Source: a virus
Reading direction: 5' to 3' (one strand)
Length of the DNA stretch: 32,268 nt
IMG/VR virus record: IMGVR_UViG_3300042485_002160
Location: 1-32,268 of that record
Below, piece after piece: positions 2,378 to 32,268 of the stretch; the stretch's first letter is position 1; every line of letters starts with the position of its first letter. The notes below the pieces were generated by a model. It worked only from the letters and a program-made list of their open reading frames with translations, made no database searches and was not told the DNA's origin. The position numbers and the translations under genes were made by a program.

Positions 2378-2402
2378 AAAAAGGGGCCATTGGCCCCTTT
2401 TT
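2378..2402 (-). terminator. Rho-independent terminator after the tmRNA
   Basis: GGGGCC-ATT-GGCCCC (2383-2397) is flanked by A5 and T5, giving a strong GC hairpin with a U-tract on either strand. On the minus strand it follows the 3' end of the tmRNA coding piece directly. It separates the tmRNA from the Bug gene downstream. Confidence 0.85.
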
Positions 2403-2655
2403 GGCGGTTTCTGTTACGAGGTATTTCCTACCCTAAGCCGAGTTTAGGCGGCTAAAGCGAACTGTTCGTCGTTTGCATTTACGTTTTTTGCTTCTACGAC
2501 CGGGAGACCCCAATCCTACGGCTTTCACATTGCCGAGCTGTCCACTCTGTTACTCTTGACCCAATCGATATCTATGTCATCCCCACCTAAATATACAACA
2601 TACACTTAGGTGGAGATGCCGGGAACTGCCCCCGGGTCTTGGATCCTTTTCTCTT
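2403..2655 (-). ncRNA. ssrA: Circularly permuted two-piece tmRNA
   Basis: In minus-strand order the gene starts with the acceptor piece and ends with the coding piece. The acceptor piece has a P2 strand GATCCAA (2645-2639), a T-arm CCGGG-loop-CCCGG (2635-2619) and the 3' acceptor strand CATCTCC-ACC (2618-2609). The coding piece starts at GGGGATG (2584-2578), which pairs with CATCTCC, and has the other P2 strand TTGGGTC (2564-2558). The tag frame ends ANDEQFALAA at the TAA 2446-2444, followed by hairpins up to the terminator. Acceptor and coding ends are joined by a 13-bp stem (2618-2606 with 2590-2578) and a 15-base loop, to be cut out in maturation. tmRNA with SmpB rescues stalled ribosomes. 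The exact 5' and 3' ends are estimated. The genome has ACCT, not ACCA, at the acceptor end, so the last A would be added after trimming. Confidence 0.92.
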
Positions 2656-2678
2656 TGCTTCATACAGCAATAAACTGT

Positions 2679-2707
2679 AGTTTACTGTAAAGTGCGAATG
2701 CTGTCAA
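2679..2707 (-). promoter_or_regulatory. Promoter for the tmRNA
   Basis: A perfect -35 TTGACA (2707-2702) and a -10 TAAACT (2684-2679) are 17 bases apart on the minus strand, inside the last codons of the DctP-like gene. The predicted start near 2672 is about 20 bases before the acceptor piece. This would let the tmRNA be made independently of the gene upstream. Confidence 0.55.
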
Positions 2708-3632
2708 CCAACCCTGGTGTAAAGTAGTCTTCAAACTTGGTGTAAACTGATTCTGTTGCTTTCTTAAAGTGAGTTTGATCTTCTTCAGAAAACTTGATAA
2801 CACGAATGCCATCAGCACGAGCAAGAGATCCCACACGCTCGACATCTGCAACACTAATGTCACGCTCATGGCGTGCCGCTTCAATTGCGGCTTGTTTAAT
2901 TTTGGCTTGTAACTCAACCGGCAAGCCTTGCATCCATTGTTTGTTGGCAATGATATTAGTGGTCAACAGATTGTGTTCGGTGTCAAAAATTACATTACTT
3001 ACTTCGTTTTGACGGCAAGCATAAATGCGTGGCCACGAGCTTTCGCCGCCTTCTACAGTTCCATCTTCCATGCGATCAGCCAAATCTTCAATATCAAACG
3101 TAACCGGAGTAGCACCAATACTTTCAAAAATTGCTTCGCAAATTGGATTGGAAGTCACCCGCACACGAGCTCCGGCCAAGTCGTTTAGTGTTGCAACATT
3201 TTTGCTAAACGGAATATTTCTAAAACCGCCCGAATATGTAAACGCTAAACCTTGTAAGTTGCTATTATGACCGTAGCTGTCTAACAACTTAGCACCAATT
3301 TTGCCCTCAAATACGTTGGCAGCATGATCATGGTCACGAAATAAAAAAGGCATGTCTACAACATGCATGTCAGGTGCGTATTTGTTACCTAACACATAAC
3401 TGTATGTCTGGCTCATCTCAATGAGATCGTCTTCCATTAATTGCAATAAATCGTGCTTGGTAATTTTTTTGCCGTTGTTGTATCGATTTGCGTACTCGCT
3501 CAGAGTCATAACTTCTATTTTGAGTTGACCTGGGGCCAACTTGTCAATGACTTCGGTAAATTTTTCGGCGGCTTTGATAAAAATATCAATGGGCTCGTGC
3601 GCCAAAACCCATTTTACTAATTTAGGTTGCAT
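2682..3632 (-). CDS. TRAP-type (DctP-like) solute-binding protein without signal peptide
   Basis: The protein has 316 residues. The fold signature of DctP/TRAP substrate-binding proteins is clear: LAPGQLKIEVMTLSEYANR, DMHVVDMPFLFRDHDHAANVF, a central NDLAGARVRVTSNPICEAIFESIGATPV and VEGGESSWPRIYA. The conserved arginine in the GARVRV block normally binds a substrate carboxylate. The protein starts directly with MQPKLVKWVLAHEP. The codons upstream are open only to a TAG and encode no hydrophobic leader, so it should stay in the cytoplasm unless exported otherwise. AAGGA sits six bases before the ATG. No DctQ or DctM partner is visible. It is preceded by a structured 127-base leader, and the promoter of the tmRNA lies in its 3' end. 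Confidence 0.8.
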   Translation of the reverse strand: MQPKLVKWVLAHEPIDIFIKAAEKFTEVIDKLAPGQLKIEVMTLSEYANRYNNGKKITKHDLLQLMEDDLIEMSQTYSYVLGNKYAPDMHVVDMPFLFRDHDHAANVFEGKIGAKLLDSYGHNSNLQGLAFTYSGGFRNIPFSKNVATLNDLAGARVRVTSNPICEAIFESIGATPVTFDIEDLADRMEDGTVEGGESSWPRIYACRQNEVSNVIFDTEHNLLTTNIIANKQWMQGLPVELQAKIKQAAIEAARHERDISVADVERVGSLARADGIRVIKFSEEDQTHFKKATESVYTKFEDYFTPGLVDSIRTLQ

Positions 3633-4356: not shown

Positions 4357-5265
4357 TTAATTAATTTTAACTCCAGCACTAAATTTTTTCCACTTGATAA
4401 TTTGATCTTGGTAGTATTGGTCTAGTTGGGTATCCTTGATAGTTATAGGTTGGCAACGATCAATGTAATAAGCCGCACGTACTCTTGGAGTATCTGCAGC
4501 CTTTGCAAGAATGCTACGCAATTCTTGAAAACGCCCTTGATCTATGCGGGCAGAAACCAAGTACTGGTGCGGCGGGCTCATAAACGCCAAGTTAGGACTA
4601 AACCCCTGACTAATTAAAGTAGGAACATTTTCAAATGTTTGTGTACCAGTTACACCTAATAGATTTACAGTTTTCTTTGTGTGATTTTCTCGAGCCCAAC
4701 TTTCAACGTCACCAATAAAATTAACTGACAAATCAATTTGTCCTGCGAGCATATTTACTAAACTTTCGCTAGTGCTCTTGAATGGAATTACTTGTATATC
4801 TGGGTACTTTAACCGCAACTGTTCAGCAATCAAATGAGTAGTAGTGCCCAAGCCACTCACTCCAATGGTCAAGTAACGATCATGCGGAACATCTTGCCAA
4901 CGATTGTATTTTACACTGGTGATCAATGCAGGGACCACACACTTGGGCATAATCTCTCTAAAGGCACCAACGTCGTGACTGTCGTTTGGATAAAAATTGG
5001 GACGAATAAAAAATGCAGAACTGGTTGCTAGTACTGTGTTTGCATTAGTTAACGCAAAGTTTGCGGCAACTGTGCCACCAGCGCCTGGCTTTGCTTCAAA
5101 AATAAATGTAAATCGATCTTGAATACGGTTGGCTTCGTTGATGATCGCACGATCAAAGTTTGCGGCAGGATCGCTTGCGGCCCAACTATAAGCAATTGTA
5201 ACGTTTTCTCGACTGTGTGCAGTCAACGACAATGTCAATAATAATATAGTTAAAAGTTTTTTCAT
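4357..5265 (-). CDS. Bug/TctC-type periplasmic solute-binding protein 2
   Basis: The protein has 302 residues. The start at 5265 gives a signal peptide (MKKLLTILLLTLSLTAHS, then RENVTIAY) and has AAGGA five bases upstream; an upstream in-frame start would bury it. Family motifs are better kept than in protein 1: EAKPGAGGTVAANFALTN, LTIGVSGLGTTTHLIAEQL and VIPFKSTSESLVNMLAGQIDLS. It should bind a small, probably carboxylated, solute in the periplasm. It starts 7 bases after a PP-loop gene stops and is followed after 9 bases by the 2OG oxygenase. This mirrors the Bug-PP-loop pairing at 306-2326, but in reverse order. No TctA/TctB membrane genes are in the window, so it would need host permeases or a different role. 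Confidence 0.85.
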   Translation of the reverse strand: MKKLLTILLLTLSLTAHSRENVTIAYSWAASDPAANFDRAIINEANRIQDRFTFIFEAKPGAGGTVAANFALTNANTVLATSSAFFIRPNFYPNDSHDVGAFREIMPKCVVPALITSVKYNRWQDVPHDRYLTIGVSGLGTTTHLIAEQLRLKYPDIQVIPFKSTSESLVNMLAGQIDLSVNFIGDVESWARENHTKKTVNLLGVTGTQTFENVPTLISQGFSPNLAFMSPPHQYLVSARIDQGRFQELRSILAKAADTPRVRAAYYIDRCQPITIKDTQLDQYYQDQIIKWKKFSAGVKIN

Positions 5266-5272
5266 ATGGTCC

Positions 5273-6457
5273 TTAGAATTTAAAGTGTGAGTTGATGCCA
5301 GTGTCTGTGTAACTAGCATCACCAAGATAATAGAATGGGCTGATAAATCCCACAAAGCCCACAGGTTGTTTCATTTCGTAGTTGAAATATTTGGGATCAA
5401 TGCTATTTATTAGGTGGTCAAGTCCAGCACGCCAAATCTTAAACTGCTGAGTTTCTTTGAAGTTTTGGTAAAACCAAAAATCCATTTCATTGTAAAAACT
5501 GTTTGAGGCCTTGTTGGTTTGAAACGTAGCAGGATCGTAGTCAGGATAAATCAACGGTTTCAAAATAGATTCATACGCATTGCGATGAGTGTAACTGTAG
5601 TTGGGCCATCTGCAAACATACTGCAACATTCGATTCTCTGGGAGATCAAACCAACGTCGGAGCACGTGGGCTTGTTTTACAAGCATTTCGGGCAAGTCCG
5701 GACTCCAATAAAAATACTCAGTAGTAAGATTGCTGTACTCTCCAGCATCAGTTACTGAGTGATTGGCAATAATGTCAATGAAGTACGCATACCACTTGCT
5801 ATCCTTGATACAAATTTTAGGTTTGTCTACTCCATATAAGATACAAATATTACGTCCTGAGTCTGCTTGCAATTTGTGATCATGGTGCCCTATTTTAGAA
5901 TGCTTGAAACTGTGTCCGGGCTGAAAATAATCTTTAGAACGATATACCCAAGATTCATCGTAAGAACTATTGAGCATGTCTTCGCTATAGTCATGCAACG
6001 TAATCTTAGTACGTGGAGAAGCTGTTGTTAACCAATTCAGAATTGGAAATGCCGCGTACTTTGCCTCACTTAAAGTGTTCTCGCATTTGTAGTTGAACGG
6101 GTCATCGTTGACATTTTTTTCACCAGTCTTGGGATAACGAAAAACCACTTCATCAATGTGAATGTTGTTATTTACAAAACTGTACAACACAGTAGTTGAG
6201 TCTGAGCCACCACTAAACTCTAAACGAATATAATCGTACTTGTTGCGCAACTGTTGTGCTCTAATACGATATAGCTCATTTATATGAGGGGAAGGCTCAT
6301 CGTGCCAGTTAATTGTGCCAAACACTTCGTCATTAAAGTTCCATTTGGGAAACTGGTTGGTTTTTGTCGCTTCCATCAAGGCCATGGGCTTGCTGAAAAA
6401 TTTCTCTTGGCCTACTGTGTAAAATCCCAATTTGGGGTTGTTTTCAATTTTTATCAT
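5273..6457 (-). CDS. PP-loop ATP-pyrophosphatase family protein, paralog 2
   Basis: The protein has 394 residues with SGGSDS at residues 82-87 after YDYIRLEF. It shares with its two neighbours the N-terminal module (LGFYTVGQEKFFSK, WNFNDEVFG), the helix before the loop (ELYRIRAQQLRNKYDY) and C-terminal blocks (TEYFYWSPDLPEMLVKQAH, LIYPDYDP). The PP-loop implies substrate adenylation with pyrophosphate release. The rest of the protein matches no family I can name. The ATG at 6457 overlaps the end of the next PP-loop gene by 14 bases; a TTG two codons earlier is possible. The Bug gene follows 7 bases after its stop. Confidence 0.8.
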   Translation of the reverse strand: MIKIENNPKLGFYTVGQEKFFSKPMALMEATKTNQFPKWNFNDEVFGTINWHDEPSPHINELYRIRAQQLRNKYDYIRLEFSGGSDSTTVLYSFVNNNIHIDEVVFRYPKTGEKNVNDDPFNYKCENTLSEAKYAAFPILNWLTTASPRTKITLHDYSEDMLNSSYDESWVYRSKDYFQPGHSFKHSKIGHHDHKLQADSGRNICILYGVDKPKICIKDSKWYAYFIDIIANHSVTDAGEYSNLTTEYFYWSPDLPEMLVKQAHVLRRWFDLPENRMLQYVCRWPNYSYTHRNAYESILKPLIYPDYDPATFQTNKASNSFYNEMDFWFYQNFKETQQFKIWRAGLDHLINSIDPKYFNYEMKQPVGFVGFISPFYYLGDASYTDTGINSHFKF

Positions 6458-7721
6458 GATCAAATGCTGTTACGTTGCCCAAGCAATAGTTATTGTAAAA
6501 ACGATGCACCCCGCCGATATATGGAGCTCGCTTGGGATCAAATTTGTATTCCCGCCAAAGATTAGGGTCAATTTGTTTTACTTTTTGTCGCAGTGCCGGT
6601 ACCCCATTGGTGTAGTATCGTTGTCCACAATCAGGTGCCGAGTTGCAAAGCAACCAGGTATCTTTAAGAGCAAACATATGGCCATGAGGTTTGCCGGCAA
6701 CAATTAAATTAGGATTCCAGTCGGGATATATCAGCCTGTGCAAGCCTCGCATGCTTAGAGCATAGGGACGACCTGATCTAGTGATTTTGATCAAAGGCTT
6801 GGTTAGATAAGGATCAGGGCAAGTGGTGCCGTAAACTGTATCCTCGTATCCGTGATTATCTAGCACATGAATACCATCAACATCTGTGGCAGTAAGATTG
6901 TTTAAGTACCTGCATATGATATGAGCTTGTTTTGCCGGTAATGCGGGCATGTCTGGTGCCCAATAAAAAAATTCATCGTATTCTCCTGGTCGATTCAGCT
7001 GCTGAGCAAGAGCAGTTACGGCATGATCCTGCCCATCGCCAAAACGTAAATAATATTGATTATTTTGTTGGAACACATCAGGTTTTTCCACTCCCCATAC
7101 AAAACAAACTTTTTTGCCCGATTCGATCAATTCACGATACGCAGACACAGTTTCTCTTATGTAACTGCGACTCAACGCACTGAATGAGTAGTATTGATTG
7201 ACGTGATAGAAAAAGTCCCATCGATTGTCGCTTACAGTCATTAACTTTGCATTGAGGTCAGTTATGTCGATGACTCTGTGCACTGTGTTTTTGTACAACG
7301 GATTGTTTTCTAACAGTGTCTGTGTCTGTGGTATAGCAGTAGCATATATTTCGCCATTGAGGTAATCTTGCTTGTTTTGAGTACCATCTACTGTGGTATA
7401 CTGCGCAATTTCATCAACAAAGATATTGTTTTTTACAAAAGTATTGAGTATATTGGACGAGTCAGCACCGCCAGAATACCACAACACAATATAGTCATAG
7501 TCGTTGCGAATCTGTTCAGCTCTAGCACGGTACCAAAATTCTAAATTGCCCGGGGGGTCCTGGCCCCAGTTGAATTGGCCATACACTTGGGTATTGTAAT
7601 GCCACTGAATAGGCTGCCGGCTTTGGCCGTAAAATTCAATGGCTTCTAACTTGCTGTAGGTTTTTTGGTTGCCTACAGTGTAGTAGCCATACCGATCTTT
7701 GTCGTTGAGAGTATAAGTCAA
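6444..7721 (-). CDS. PP-loop ATP-pyrophosphatase family protein, paralog 3
   Basis: The protein has 425 residues with SGGADS at residues 83-88 after YDYIVLWY. It is the longest of the three paralogs and carries the same blocks: YGYYTVGNQKTYSK, WHYNTQVYG, LEFWYRARAEQIRNDYDY, DEFFYWAPDMPALPAKQAH and LIYPDWNP. The only start that fits is TTG at 7721, whose TTGA overlaps the stop of the gene upstream; AAGGA lies about 10 bases before it. The non-ATG start and overlap suggest output limited by coupling to the upstream gene. Its substrate is unknown. Confidence 0.8.
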   Translation of the reverse strand: MTYTLNDKDRYGYYTVGNQKTYSKLEAIEFYGQSRQPIQWHYNTQVYGQFNWGQDPPGNLEFWYRARAEQIRNDYDYIVLWYSGGADSSNILNTFVKNNIFVDEIAQYTTVDGTQNKQDYLNGEIYATAIPQTQTLLENNPLYKNTVHRVIDITDLNAKLMTVSDNRWDFFYHVNQYYSFSALSRSYIRETVSAYRELIESGKKVCFVWGVEKPDVFQQNNQYYLRFGDGQDHAVTALAQQLNRPGEYDEFFYWAPDMPALPAKQAHIICRYLNNLTATDVDGIHVLDNHGYEDTVYGTTCPDPYLTKPLIKITRSGRPYALSMRGLHRLIYPDWNPNLIVAGKPHGHMFALKDTWLLCNSAPDCGQRYYTNGVPALRQKVKQIDPNLWREYKFDPKRAPYIGGVHRFYNNYCLGNVTAFDHDKN

Positions 7722-8275
7722 TGGTCTTGGTCCTTGTCCACTACTATCCAGCCCAGCTTGAACAGATCTTCTTGTACTTCATCAGTAACATAGCTTTCTC
7801 CCACAAAATGCTTGTTCATCCACTGATGTTTTTCAATTTGTTCAGGGGTCATGTCCTTGAAATCTTCTTGTGTGACGCTGCCGCGGATGCCCGAACAGTA
7901 CCAGTCAATGTAATCACCTTGTTCGAGCATGTCAGCCACAATGCCCCCGGCATAGCGCCACGAGCATGACCAGCGTTGTTCCTGGAGCAAGGGCCAAACA
8001 TCATTTTTCACAAATTTGTTGTTGCACAAGGCAGCATAGATGTTTTGAGCATACTCTTCGCGTGACTTGACTTTGTCGCAGATCCAACTAGTACTACGCA
8101 GGTCGTGTTCTAGATTGTATTTTTTCCACTCCTCGCTGGCTTCATTTTCCCGGGCGCGGTCAGCCTCGTCTTGATACAGTTTCATATATTCTTCCTGTGG
8201 TTCTTTGCCATCGTCCTTGCATCGTTGGATGTAAGACTTGAGCTGAAAAGTGCGACGATCAGTACTGCTATTCAT
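7718..8275 (-). CDS. Conserved T4-like phage protein, function unknown
   Basis: The protein has 185 residues. The N-terminal half is charged and helical (QEEYMKLYQDEADRARENEA). The C-terminal half has a conserved-looking core, QRWSCSWRYAGGIVADM, GDYIDWYCSGI, and ends with VTDEVQEDLFKLGWIVV. From memory this resembles a protein widespread in T4-like cyanophages and pelagiphages, with no known function. It has no signal peptide or membrane segment. It starts just after the tRNA-Arg gene with a poor ribosome-binding site, and its stop overlaps the TTG start of PP-loop paralog 3. Confidence 0.7.
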   Translation of the reverse strand: MNSSTDRRTFQLKSYIQRCKDDGKEPQEEYMKLYQDEADRARENEASEEWKKYNLEHDLRSTSWICDKVKSREEYAQNIYAALCNNKFVKNDVWPLLQEQRWSCSWRYAGGIVADMLEQGDYIDWYCSGIRGSVTQEDFKDMTPEQIEKHQWMNKHFVGESYVTDEVQEDLFKLGWIVVDKDQDH

Positions 8276-18340: not shown

Positions 18341-19186
18341 TTATTTCCCCCAGCCATTGCCCCAAAGATCCACATGCAATCTTGGGGTATACCAGTAACC
18401 GCGTTTGAGTGCTTCGTCTGCAACATGAATTCTATTGCTGTCATATACGCTAACCACACCGCCCACTGGCATCACGAACACGGGGCCACTGAAACCACGC
18501 AGTCGATACTCATCCACAGCACGATCCAGCTCGTCGAAGTCTTCAATCTTGTCTACCACAAACTTCAAGTAAGTGATGCCATGTGTTTCGTAATCCCATA
18601 CAATATCTGGCTTGATTGCATCTGCCCAAGTCTCACCTGATACACTCAGCTTGGGGCTTACTGAGAATGTGATCTCACCGTGCCAGTTTGCCAGATACTG
18701 TTTGAAGTCACGTGTGAGTTCTTGAGTACCATTGGTTTCAAATGTAATGTGTCGCAAACCACGTTCGTGCAACAGGTCCAACAACTCAGGATATGCTCGC
18801 TGCCAGCCCAGCAATGGCTCGCCACCAGTGATAACCAAGTGTACAGGGTTGCCGTTGGGTTGTTGCCAGTTATTGTTAGGCAACAATGCTGCCATCTTTT
18901 CCACAAGTTCTTCAGGAGTGTATGTGGGGCTTAGATGTTTGAAGTCTGGATGCCAACTAGCATAGCTGTCGCAGCCAGTATCTACTAATGGCAGTTCTTC
19001 AAAAGTCTTGTATAAATGCACAGTCTTGGCAACTTCGTCAGCACCTGTGCTTTTTTCTCCAGGCTTACAACCAAAGCCTGAACAGGTGAAGTTACAACCA
19101 AATGTGCGGAGGAAAATTGAAGGAACGCCTACATAGCGGCCTTCGCCTTGTGCAGAATAAAATAGTTCACTTACTTTTAATTTCAT
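18341..19186 (-). CDS. queE: 7-carboxy-7-deazaguanine synthase QueE (phage type)
   Basis: The protein has 281 residues. It converts 6-carboxytetrahydropterin to 7-carboxy-7-deazaguanine by radical SAM chemistry. Seen in the sequence: YSAQGEGRYVGVPSIFLR at the start, a cluster loop with C31-x3-C35 and then a long insertion before TGCDSYASW (C72), plus HLVITGGEPLLGWQ and ITFETNGTQE, which are QueE hallmarks. C40 lies inside the insertion, so the third iron-sulfur ligand is probably C72, giving a much enlarged loop. It clusters with MazG and SGNH genes. FolE and QueD lie downstream in coordinate order. Confidence 0.9.
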   Translation of the reverse strand: MKLKVSELFYSAQGEGRYVGVPSIFLRTFGCNFTCSGFGCKPGEKSTGADEVAKTVHLYKTFEELPLVDTGCDSYASWHPDFKHLSPTYTPEELVEKMAALLPNNNWQQPNGNPVHLVITGGEPLLGWQRAYPELLDLLHERGLRHITFETNGTQELTRDFKQYLANWHGEITFSVSPKLSVSGETWADAIKPDIVWDYETHGITYLKFVVDKIEDFDELDRAVDEYRLRGFSGPVFVMPVGGVVSVYDSNRIHVADEALKRGYWYTPRLHVDLWGNGWGK

Positions 19187-22999: not shown

Positions 23000-23497
23000 T
23001 TAGGCAAATAAATCTTCGTTCCATTCACGGTGGCCTTCACGGAAAGCCATGTTTGCCTGTGTTTCGCGAACTTCCACACGATAGCACCACAAGCGTTCGG
23101 CTTCTCCAGGTCCCCAGTTTTCAGGAATATAGATGCCGTTCACAAACTTGTACAGTTGGTCAGCCAGTCCTTCGCAGCCCAGCTTTGGCAACACAACAAT
23201 CTTGGCCATCTTGCGCTCTTGTAAAAGCTTGAAGGTTTCTAGTTCAGGGTCATCTTGTGCCACGATCAGTGTATGATCAAATTGGTCTTCTAATATTTTC
23301 TTTAGTTCCTTGAGGCCACCGTAATCAGCTGCCCAATTGCGAACATCAAGATCGTTGGTGCCAAAATAGAACTTCATTGAGAAGCTGTATCCGTGAATTA
23401 GATTGCAATGGCTGTCGGCCCGCCATTGTCGATAAGCACACGGAAACGCATCGTGATATTCTTTAGTACTTGTGTATTTGTAAACTACTGGTTGCAT
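23000..23497 (-). CDS. queD: 6-carboxytetrahydropterin synthase-like protein QueD
   Basis: The protein has 165 residues (E. coli QueD has 121). It makes 6-carboxytetrahydropterin from dihydroneopterin triphosphate. Visible: H15 (EYHDAFPC), the catalytic cysteine C31 in HCNLIHGYSF with H35, DYGGLKELKKILEDQFDHTL with the conserved D-H pair, and VEVRET with the conserved Glu. The third zinc ligand is a tyrosine (Y37) in HGY in place of HGH. A hairpin overlaps its ribosome-binding site. The gene lies between a PP-loop gene and a glycosyltransferase. Confidence 0.88.
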   Translation of the reverse strand: MQPVVYKYTSTKEYHDAFPCAYRQWRADSHCNLIHGYSFSMKFYFGTNDLDVRNWAADYGGLKELKKILEDQFDHTLIVAQDDPELETFKLLQERKMAKIVVLPKLGCEGLADQLYKFVNGIYIPENWGPGEAERLWCYRVEVRETQANMAFREGHREWNEDLFA

Positions 23498-25292: not shown

Positions 25293-25994
25293 TTAACGTG
25301 GTGCAAAGTCCTGCTGCAACTTGATGTTGTCAAAGAACTCTTTCTTGACACTTTGATCTTCTTTGAAAGCGCCTCTAAGAACTGTGGTCTGTGTAAGACT
25401 ACTGTGAGCCATAATACCACGATTCTCACAACAACCATGAATTGCCTGCACATATACTGCTACGTTTTCTGATTCAGTAGCCTTGCTAATCTCGCGAGCA
25501 ATGTCATTACATAGTTCTTCTTGTAGTGTACCACGGCGGGCGCACCACTGTGCGATTCGGGTGTACTTGCTGAGGCCAATTAATTTCTCTGCCGCAATAA
25601 TGCCAATATAAGCAACCCCAGCAACGGGTTGGTGATGATGACTACACATACTACGAAGTTCACTGCGAACCACGAGCATACCTTCGTAGCGGTCCTGCGA
25701 ATCGTTTGGAAATGCTGTTGCATCTGGTGCTTGTTCATATCTACCTGCCATTATTTCATTGTAGTACATTTTGGCCAACCTACGGGCTGTGCCCTTTGAG
25801 TTGGGATCTGTTTCTCGATCAATCAGTAGTCGGTCCAGTACTACTTCAAATGCTTCTGCAGCCTCGTCGATTAGCAGTCTGCGTTCTTCTGGTTTGATGT
25901 ATTCACTAATGTTGTCCCCGGCCCAGAATCTCTTGCCGTCGGATTTCATACGCTCGCGGATTGCTTGTGATAGGTGTTTGCTTGTATCTGTCAT
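25293..25994 (-). CDS. folE: GTP cyclohydrolase I FolE
   Basis: The protein has 233 residues. It turns GTP to dihydroneopterin triphosphate, the first step to folate, biopterin and 7-deazaguanines. Signature residues: the zinc site C117 with H120 (MCSHHHQPVAG), LIGLSKYTRIAQWCARRGTL, and HGCCENRGIMAHSSLTQT with the second zinc Cys at 188 or 189. In phages with queD, queE and a TGT-like gene it feeds base modification. It starts 1 base after the aminotransferase stop. The N-terminal 60 residues are longer and more charged than in E. coli FolE. Confidence 0.92.
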   Translation of the reverse strand: MTDTSKHLSQAIRERMKSDGKRFWAGDNISEYIKPEERRLLIDEAAEAFEVVLDRLLIDRETDPNSKGTARRLAKMYYNEIMAGRYEQAPDATAFPNDSQDRYEGMLVVRSELRSMCSHHHQPVAGVAYIGIIAAEKLIGLSKYTRIAQWCARRGTLQEELCNDIAREISKATESENVAVYVQAIHGCCENRGIMAHSSLTQTTVLRGAFKEDQSVKKEFFDNIKLQQDFAPR

Positions 25995-30376: not shown

Positions 30377-30900
30377 ACAGGTTTGTCCTCGTTGTACTGA
30401 TCCCAGTCAGTGAATGTTCGTCTTGACATCAGGCTGTGCAAACTGTGAGTCCACACTCCTGGGTTGGTTGCATCAAAATTGTTGTCGTCAATCTTGATCA
30501 TGGTGTTGTAGTTCCATAGCCGCACATACGGAATGCTTACTCGAATCTGCGGAACAAAGTTACGATACTCGCACAAGCCCGAATCGTTAAATTCTTCCAC
30601 ACACTTGACAGGAATATCAAGACTGCACATGTGACCTTTTTTAAGAAAGTGCCCAATCATGCCTTCCCATTGTGCCCATTCTGAGTTGTTGTCTGGGCAA
30701 AAACTGTGATTGGCACCAAAGAAGATATGCTTGACGTGCTTGGATTGATCTTCGTAGCTGTTTAAGTCATCCAGCCAGTCTTGAATTTCTGCAACCGGTT
30801 GCACTCCTACCACAAATAGTGTGCGCTTTCCAAATGCTGGTGTACGCTCAACTTCTGTTCCCACAAAAAAGTTGACGTTGTCATGACCTTCTCGATTCAT
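30373..30900 (-). CDS. Conserved phage protein next to the TGT/DpdA-like gene
   Basis: The protein has 175 residues. Cues are FFVGTEVERTPAFGKRTLFV, a centre with HIFFGANHSFCPDNNS and WAQWEGMIGHFLKKGHMCSL, and an end NTMIKIDDNNFDATNPGVW, followed by FTDWDQYNED. I recall homologs in T4-like cyanophages, all of unknown function. The ATGA overlap with the TGT-like gene suggests a joint role, which is inference. Five cysteines and histidines in the centre could bind metal. Confidence 0.6.
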   Translation of the reverse strand: MNREGHDNVNFFVGTEVERTPAFGKRTLFVVGVQPVAEIQDWLDDLNSYEDQSKHVKHIFFGANHSFCPDNNSEWAQWEGMIGHFLKKGHMCSLDIPVKCVEEFNDSGLCEYRNFVPQIRVSIPYVRLWNYNTMIKIDDNNFDATNPGVWTHSLHSLMSRRTFTDWDQYNEDKPV

Positions 30901-32268
30901 TGCTGGTCCTGTTCTAGTTGATCAAGTTTGTTGTTGTCTAATTGTACACTATCATCCAATTCGTCTTCAACCGCAGTTTCTTCTAAATCAAACAGTGCGT
31001 TGAACTGTGTACGTGCATTCATGGCTTTTTTGCCTTTGAATCCGCGTGTGCCCACAATTTGCATCCAGTATGAACTGTATTGTTCAATTATGGCATCAGC
31101 AGTTTGCCTATCTGGTGCAGCAAAAATGGCTTCTACAATGTGTTCAAAATACTCATAATTGCCACCATCTCGACGCATCATGGCAGGATGCTCTCCTGCA
31201 TCAAAACGTCGATTGGCTTCTTGCACAGCAGTCAAGTGCATGTACACATTGTGACCCATGAGCAAGGCATAGCTAAAACTATCCCAGCTTGTTTTGCCCC
31301 ATTTACCATTTTTGTTTTGATCTGGCAATACATCGTATAGCGCAGGATCTTTAAAATTTTCTTCGGTAATAGTAACACCAGCCTTGGGTATACCATCTTT
31401 GTAGATGCAAACATCCTTCATGGTCAACATATCACTTATGGGACTATCTTGCCAACGCGGATAGATACCATCAGCAATTACTCCTGTATTCCACTTTCGT
31501 GTGTCAGTGGAGTATTTTTTGTCATCGGCTGAAGGAGCCATGCGATACGACCATTTGCCGTCTTGCGGGAAGACATTTTCATAGTAGACCTGTCCGTTCG
31601 CTGTTGCGAGGAATGGGCTGGCGCAATCAAAAGAGATGGTAAACGCTGGATTGACATATTTCCTTACGGCTCGTTGAATAACAGTTAAGAGAACTGCCCA
31701 CTCTAGCTTGCTGGTTCCCAAAAAGTGCATCCAATCATGCACACCTTCTTGCAGCAAGTTATCATAACGCAATGCCACCAGGCGTTTCAACACCAGGTGT
31801 ACATCGCACATGTTCTGTCCGCCCATGGCCCAACCATCAAAGTGACGTCCAGGGTATTGAGCAGGATCACAAAATTTCTTCATCTCTTGATACCAAATCT
31901 CTGCTGAGGTATGATTATCACCTTGTAACACGTTTAGGAATTTGGCACCGCCATTTTCTTTGCCTCGGCGATTGGCAATGAAATATTCGTTGTTGAACTT
32001 GGTGGCTTCAAATGCTTGATCCAAGGTAGAAATTCCGCAAGCCTGGCTAGACTTCTTGTCATGAATAACCCAGGTGGGAATATCAAGAATCATGCCGTAA
32101 TCAGCAATGTTATCCAACCACTTTAGGACACCGTCTCGTTTTTTCTGTGCCTTGGCACAACCTGAGTTGGCTTTCCAGTCACCTTCCCATAGTCCCTTGG
32201 CAATCTGAAAGCCGCCCGAGTCTCCCAGTATAAAATTCCCAGGCTCCCGACTTCGTACCATGTCCTCT
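30897..32268 (-). CDS. dpdA: TGT/DpdA-like 7-deazaguanine transglycosylase, partial
   Basis: At least 456 residues are seen; the frame is open at the right edge, so the N-terminus is missing. FILGDSGGFQIAKGL is the substrate-Asp and glycine block of tRNA-guanine transglycosylases. MILDIPTWVI, FDGWAMGGQNMCDVHLVLKR, HFLGTSK and FTISFDCASPFLA follow in the TGT barrel order, with the D-x-x-S-P region likely holding the nucleophile Asp. A C-terminal helical region and an acidic tail (EETAVEDELDD, LEQDQQ) follow. Phage DpdA proteins exchange guanine in DNA for preQ0 or related bases. Together with folE, queD and queE this supports DNA modification. A tRNA-type role is a less likely alternative. Confidence 0.8.
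   Translation of the reverse strand, partial: EDMVRSREPGNFILGDSGGFQIAKGLWEGDWKANSGCAKAQKKRDGVLKWLDNIADYGMILDIPTWVIHDKKSSQACGISTLDQAFEATKFNNEYFIANRRGKENGGAKFLNVLQGDNHTSAEIWYQEMKKFCDPAQYPGRHFDGWAMGGQNMCDVHLVLKRLVALRYDNLLQEGVHDWMHFLGTSKLEWAVLLTVIQRAVRKYVNPAFTISFDCASPFLATANGQVYYENVFPQDGKWSYRMAPSADDKKYSTDTRKWNTGVIADGIYPRWQDSPISDMLTMKDVCIYKDGIPKAGVTITEENFKDPALYDVLPDQNKNGKWGKTSWDSFSYALLMGHNVYMHLTAVQEANRRFDAGEHPAMMRRDGGNYEYFEHIVEAIFAAPDRQTADAIIEQYSSYWMQIVGTRGFKGKKAMNARTQFNALFDLEETAVEDELDDSVQLDNNKLDQLEQDQQ

Follow-up and report, generated by a model that had tools for sequence, protein, structure and literature searches.

A beta-like permuted tmRNA gene with a co-varying elbow in a jumbo phage, and putative protein genes in the excised spacers of its relatives

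Results

A two-piece tmRNA gene between solute-binding protein genes

The DNA analysed here (the window) is the whole 32,268-nucleotide IMG/VR virus record IMGVR_UViG_3300042485_002160. On its minus strand, between a DctP-type (2682-3632) and a TctC-type (1445-2350) solute-binding protein gene, as a preliminary description of this DNA had it, lies a gene in the order acceptor piece, spacer, coding piece, with a paired acceptor stem. The acceptor piece (2609-2669, its 5' bound approximate) comprises a GCTGT strand (2668-2664), the 5' strand GATCCAA of the long helix (2639-2645), the T-arm CCGGG-GGCAGTT-CCCGG (2619-2635; G55 at 2629, C56 at 2628) and the acceptor 3' strand CATCTCC (2612-2618; U70 at 2614), then A73 and CC (A2611, C2610, C2609), followed by T2608. 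The excised spacer (2585-2608) is of the short form without an open reading frame (ORF), by direct reading and by the predicted fold, and its TAA/TTA flanks lengthen the acceptor stem to a hairpin stem of 13 bp (CATCTCCACCTAA/TTAGGTGGGGATG). The coding piece starts with the acceptor 5' strand GGGGATG (2578-2584), the expected RNase P site lying just 5' of 2584, and continues through the D-loop ACATAGATATCGAT (2564-2577; A18 at 2573, G19 at 2572), the 3' strand TTGGGTC of the long helix (2558-2564) and ACAGC (2537-2541), the partner of GCTGT in both the covariance alignment and direct reading, to the tag frame GCA...TAA (2444-2476), which encodes ANDEQFALAA and has both a resume codon and a hydrophobic degradation end. 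Direct reading found the bases named in the preliminary description where it had placed them, with helices that pair and a tag that translates as it had claimed.

The long helix is seen by direct reading, in the predicted fold and in compensatory changes across relatives: among the matches listed it has 38 distinct versions, 23 of them fully paired, and its two innermost pairs are paired in all versions, with several pair types. The alanine identity pair G3-U70 (G2582-U2614 in the window) is present in all 303 aligned loci among the matches listed, U70 having been fixed by one retrieval pattern in part of them.

The preliminary description had also claimed a promoter and terminator belonging to the gene, and both sequence signals are present. 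A sigma-70-type promoter-like site, TTGACA-N17-TAAACT (2679-2707, minus strand), overlaps the end of the DctP gene; its -10 element is weak, with four of six consensus matches. A pair of TTGACA-type and -10 elements recurs at the same spacing, with 72 nt to the T-stem, in eight or more relatives that are not identical (loci L277, L043, L059, L061, L048, L100, L341, L241 and L060), the upstream DNA of which is unrelated; because its position is kept despite unrelated upstream DNA, the window promoter is more than a consensus match. Other relatives have no promoter-like pair at that position, and there the tmRNA may be co-transcribed with upstream genes. Downstream of the tag, a strong intrinsic terminator-like hairpin, AAAAAGGGGCC-AAT-GGCCCCTTTTT followed by CTTTTT, occupies 2378-2402 (minus strand).

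Covariance models and the predicted fold identify window positions 2669-2444 (minus strand) as a circularly permuted tmRNA. The covariance check proposed in the preliminary description bore it out: the Rfam model RF04321 (tmRNA_permuted) matches 2669-2444 with 115.7 bits (E 3.6e-22; cut-off 47 bits). RF01850 (beta_tmRNA) matches 2720-2376 with 106 bits (E 1.6e-31; cut-off 84) and is the retained match of its clan, and the alpha model RF01849 scores 73.7 bits against a cut-off of 50, below the 106 of the beta model. The predicted fold of the window RNA beats all 200 dinucleotide shuffles (z -4.2) and holds the T-stem, the acceptor/spacer hairpin, the GATCCAA/TTGGGTC helix and the terminator. 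ARAGORN, the other tool proposed, does not report the gene; it also misses close relatives with the GGCAGTT loop and the ATATCGAT D-loop, and it calls tmRNA* ANDEQFALAA in a relative with ACACAGGATCGAT. A distant blastn search of 50,697 phage records with the tmRNA gene gave no match that covers the gene, the matches being short and lying mostly under the terminator. Some relatives have a second, weak RF04321 match about 2 kb away, and these were rejected as further tmRNA genes: those in L454 and L372 cover an ordinary tRNA-Tyr gene region of the tRNA array, and in L371 the match is to the acceptor half of a tmRNA whose spacer is long.

Co-variation of bases 55 and 18

The window T-loop reads GGCAGTT instead of TTCGATT, bringing G55 (2629) together with A18 (2573), with G19 and C56 kept. 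Among the genome matches listed, T-loops of the GGCAGTT class belong mostly to SAR11, other alphaproteobacteria and Saccharibacteria, and they occur in viral contigs too. At least 306 permuted tmRNA loci with matched acceptor strands were extracted using retrieval patterns, one of which fixed the T-loop and none of which fixed base 18. T55 is accompanied by G18 in at least 51 loci and G55 by A18 in at least 251, and bases 55 and 18 co-vary in every clearly scorable locus among the approximately 300 listed. The apparent exceptions are three non-tmRNA matches (L386, L231 and L206) and L255, the D-loop of which has two possible alignments. On a tree built from the coding pieces without these loops (120 columns; several branches weakly supported), the two bases change in concert in all seven phylogenetically independent contrasts that fall on supported branches (p 0.016), and all branches taken together give 15 contrasts, with no discordant row among 100. 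The window has G55 with A18, and its elbow is therefore likely to be compensated and probably works; the usual G18-U55 contact is apparently replaced, not lost, in this tmRNA.

In 2005, guanines were described in place of both T-loop uridines in Reclinomonas mitochondria and in place of the second one in Caulobacter (PMC1168896). In our literature search, outside which most subscription papers lay, the matching D-loop change and the 18-55 co-variation in tmRNA were unreported. This co-variation provides a direct, testable rule for the changes that are permitted in the tmRNA elbow. We note that permuted tmRNAs with GGCAGTA or GGCGGTA T-loops were also seen (L170/L374, L373 and L403), seemingly in genomes of Gammaproteobacteria.

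Protein genes in the excised spacers of relatives

With 27 nt between its acceptor strands, the window has the short, empty form of the spacer. Among the matches listed, spacers of viral loci range from 9 to 459 nt with a median of 78, and those of the bacterial loci compared (mostly SAR11) have a median of 16. A scan for a 5'-piece motif that was blind to the spacer, together with the earlier loci, gave at least 128 loci with both halves intact. The spacer is 180 nt or longer in at least 16 of the 128, and in 15 of those 16 one ORF fills more than 75% of it. At least 25 spacer ORFs have 34 or more codons for amino acids; nearly all start 10-16 nt past the acceptor stem, 22 of the 25 have a purine-rich ribosome-binding site just after the CCA, and in 24 of the 25 the stop codon precedes the coding piece by 1 or by 12-13 nt. 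Several take as their stop the TGA within the conserved TTATGAT flank, a single base away from where RNase P is expected to cut.

The spacer proteins are mutually unrelated and some are without a known family. Others match an SNase domain (L052, a locus retrieved via the tag pattern; PF00565, 2.6e-12), DUF2061 (L027 and L043; PF09834, 3.5e-20 and 3.7e-21), the CxxCxxCC family (L074, L025, L089 and L466; PF03692, 1e-5 and 1.3e-6) and DUF6356 (L522; PF19883, 7e-10). At least 12 related phages hold a whole protein gene in the excised spacer, the spacer-gene loci being L052, L027, L043, L005, L057, L009, L046, L074, L025, L089, L466, L485, L541, L461, L522, L509, L493, L471 and L499. Between homologues, differences at the first, second and third codon positions number 10/7/33 (L027-L043), 13/11/35 (L074-L466) and, in a more diverged pair, 20/3/23 (L509-L499), piling up at third positions, the pattern that translation would produce. 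Because contigs from separate samples carry inserts that are identical or homologous, assembly error is disfavoured. That the spacer slot holds real genes in relatives of this phage is well supported.

It is likely that in this clade small protein genes use the excised spacer as a slot; one precursor would then give rise to both tmRNA pieces and a short mRNA, perhaps carrying cargo under tmRNA control. We speculate that such an mRNA would begin at the ribosome-binding site and end at, or no more than 13 nt from, the stop codon; release of the cargo as mRNA and its feedback control by the tmRNA are likewise speculation. Permuted spacers have been reported to contain a tRNA gene (a tRNA-Ala inside one), and a repeat has been mentioned (PMC11915505); our literature search found no paper on protein genes in permuted tmRNA spacers. 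If the cargo genes are expressed, permuted tmRNA genes would be more than rearranged RNA genes: each would be a transcription unit that yields a protein as well as an RNA, something new for tmRNA.

Phage genome and gene neighbourhood

The whole window maps at 99.9% identity or more to bases 173,405-205,670 of a 209,543-base viral contig, and the tmRNA is therefore a jumbo-phage gene; the phage is an uncultured, aquatic one. The contig has matches to DNA polymerase, DnaB helicase, ribonucleotide reductase and DNA ligase, and also encodes a virion structural protein, a tail fibre and baseplate proteins. At the amino acid level, the helicase and the exonuclease of this contig share 44-49% identity with those of the jumbo phages PA5oct, XaC1 and Atu_ph07, the nearest cultured relatives, in none of which a search with the permuted tmRNA model gave a match.

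An ORF resembling window 7718-8275 (conserved, 185 aa) lies close 5' of the tmRNA in 12 other contigs, with 42-53% identity, and of five relatives scanned, four have the tmRNA among tRNA genes. In this phage about 5 kb separate that ORF from the tmRNA, with DctP, TctC and SGGxDS-motif ORFs intervening, and seven tRNA genes lie on the other side of the tmRNA. Because relatives have the tmRNA in a tRNA array and next to the 185-aa ORF, the transporter genes probably came to lie next to it by insertion; the simplest reading is that metabolic genes entered an older tRNA/tmRNA region. The solute-binding neighbourhood is, in these comparisons, particular to this phage. The preliminary description had called a permuted copy in such a setting striking; a permuted tmRNA in a phage is not new in kind (PMC9004378).

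Several other genes of the window deserve mention. On the minus strand, 1445-2350, 2682-3632 and 4357-5355 encode two TctC-type and one DctP-type solute-binding proteins, and no transporter membrane gene was recognised among the window ORFs scanned. Three paralogous ORFs with an SGGxDS (PP-loop-like) motif (306-1448, 5273-6463 and 6444-7721, minus strand) had no match in the family libraries scanned. At 18341-19186, 23000-23497, 25293-25994 and 30897-32261 (minus strand) are QueE-like, QueD-like and GTP cyclohydrolase I genes and an ORF with the motif LGDSGGFQ, which by eye resembles tRNA-guanine transglycosylase/DpdA; a role for this set in 7-deazaguanine DNA modification is possible.

SmpB, the CCA end and tag sequences

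A profile search for SmpB in 28 tmRNA-bearing contigs of 96-353 kb, which are possibly incomplete, found none, and the control was positive in 10 bacterial genomes. The phage therefore probably uses host SmpB, and ribosome rescue would be only partly its own. Among the matches listed, CCA is encoded in 295 of 303 loci; the window encodes CCT, an unusual end that six of the 204 viral loci show, with copies of this phage among the six, and its CCA end would therefore have to be completed by the host. At least 58 of 75 tag forms across viral loci end in LAA. Phage tags with unusual ends were seen in L485, L466, L345 and others (for example ANDSQFLQAVNA, ANDEQFLMVA and ANDSRFLMAA), and such ends may change protease recognition.

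Discussion

Very likely the two-piece tmRNA gene of this jumbo phage is functional, and its most probable source is a bacterium whose permuted ssrA was of the beta type. We infer its transcription, processing, charging, tagging and benefit from sequence, as follows. Host RNA polymerase would make one precursor from the gene's own promoter, and host tRNA-processing enzymes would remove the spacer to leave acceptor and coding pieces base-paired together. The host would finish the CCA end, and host AlaRS would charge the molecule via G3-U70. With host SmpB and EF-Tu, the tmRNA would then enter stalled ribosomes, add a tag ending in ANDEQFALAA and free the ribosomes, and translation would be sustained during infection while mRNAs are cut or degraded. 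The suggestion of the preliminary description that the gene could serve ribosome rescue or alter proteolysis is plausible on these grounds. Many uncultured aquatic phages appear to carry ribosome rescue as an RNA gene, and standard tools can miss such genes.

Decay was our initial reading of the GGCAGTT T-loop, and for the loop itself we rejected it after scanning genomes and viral contigs and testing the 18-55 pair. The broader proposal that the gene is a decayed, functionless copy of host ssrA, a by-product of DNA pick-up, might draw on the atypical T-loop and CCA and on the failure of ARAGORN; however, GGCAGTT-type loops are standard in SAR11 and common in phages, A18 matches G55 in the scored loci, and tag frame, helices, promoter and terminator are all intact. 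Retention of a tmRNA beside the same ORF in 12 other contigs also speaks against decay, which we consider highly improbable.

Two further readings grant the RNA a role other than rescue. As a decoy, the phage tmRNA would compete for SmpB or ribosomes and so weaken host trans-translation, in keeping with the lack of SmpB matches in tmRNA-bearing phage contigs and with what has been proposed for mycobacteriophage DS6A, the tmRNA of which lacks a tag (PMC4131195, PMC11915505). The DS6A molecule has no tag frame, however, whereas the tag of the window gene is complete and keeps the usual -ALAA ending, and a decoy would not need the tag ends that are nevertheless conserved across viral loci; we regard this reading as very unlikely. 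Alternatively, the tag might mainly direct host proteins to proteases so that their amino acids are recycled, a role suggested for the tmRNA of phage Melnitz (PMC9004378). An intact degradation-type tag is consistent with this, as is a large ATP-dependent protease encoded by the same contig (phrog_4871, L438:5645-7909), but the connection between tag and protease is hypothetical, and tmRNA tags only the products of stalled ribosomes and would therefore not itself single out host proteins. Such steering of proteolysis is an unlikely main function. A functional tmRNA acting in ribosome rescue is the reading that we prefer.

Among phages the two-piece form accounts for 53 of 133 unique tmRNA structures, 50 of the 53 aquatic (PMC9004378), and a phage-borne permuted tmRNA is therefore not new. 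With the betaproteobacterial two-piece tmRNA (RF01850/RF04321) the window gene shares gene order, helices, the start and end of the tag, promoter position and terminator, and it gives a full-length model match above the cut-off. It differs in its GGCAGTT T-loop and D-loop AG, where the beta form has TTCGATT and GG, in its CCT and in its phage location; the U54-U55-C56 T-loop and G18-G19 D-loop of the beta_tmRNA consensus are not found in it. Since GGCAGTT with A18-G19 is a co-varying alternative, we describe the window tmRNA as beta-like, not as a typical beta_tmRNA. SAR11 and other alphaproteobacterial tmRNAs have the same GGCAGT T-loop and A18 elbow, whereas the coding piece and tag of the window are beta-like (73.7 bits with the alpha model versus 106 with the beta model). 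The OM43 phage Melnitz and other aquatic phages likewise carry permuted tmRNA in lytic-type phages with no sign of integration (PMC9004378), but the Melnitz tmRNA is of the alpha type and is associated with a glutamine riboswitch (PMC9004378), in contrast to the beta-type, jumbo-phage gene of the window, in which an Rfam riboswitch search had no match. DS6A-type tmRNA is a tRNA-like domain without a tag, unlike the window gene with its full tag frame. Other tmRNA genes with inserts, namely tRNA-Ala in the spacer and group I introns with homing endonuclease genes (PMC11915505), resemble the relatives described here in having extra material in the removed part; in contrast, the spacers of these relatives carry varied small protein genes with ribosome-binding sites, and that of the window is empty. 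What we regard as new is the beta-like identity of a tmRNA in a jumbo phage, its putatively compensated elbow and, in relatives outside the window, the likely use of the spacer as a gene slot.
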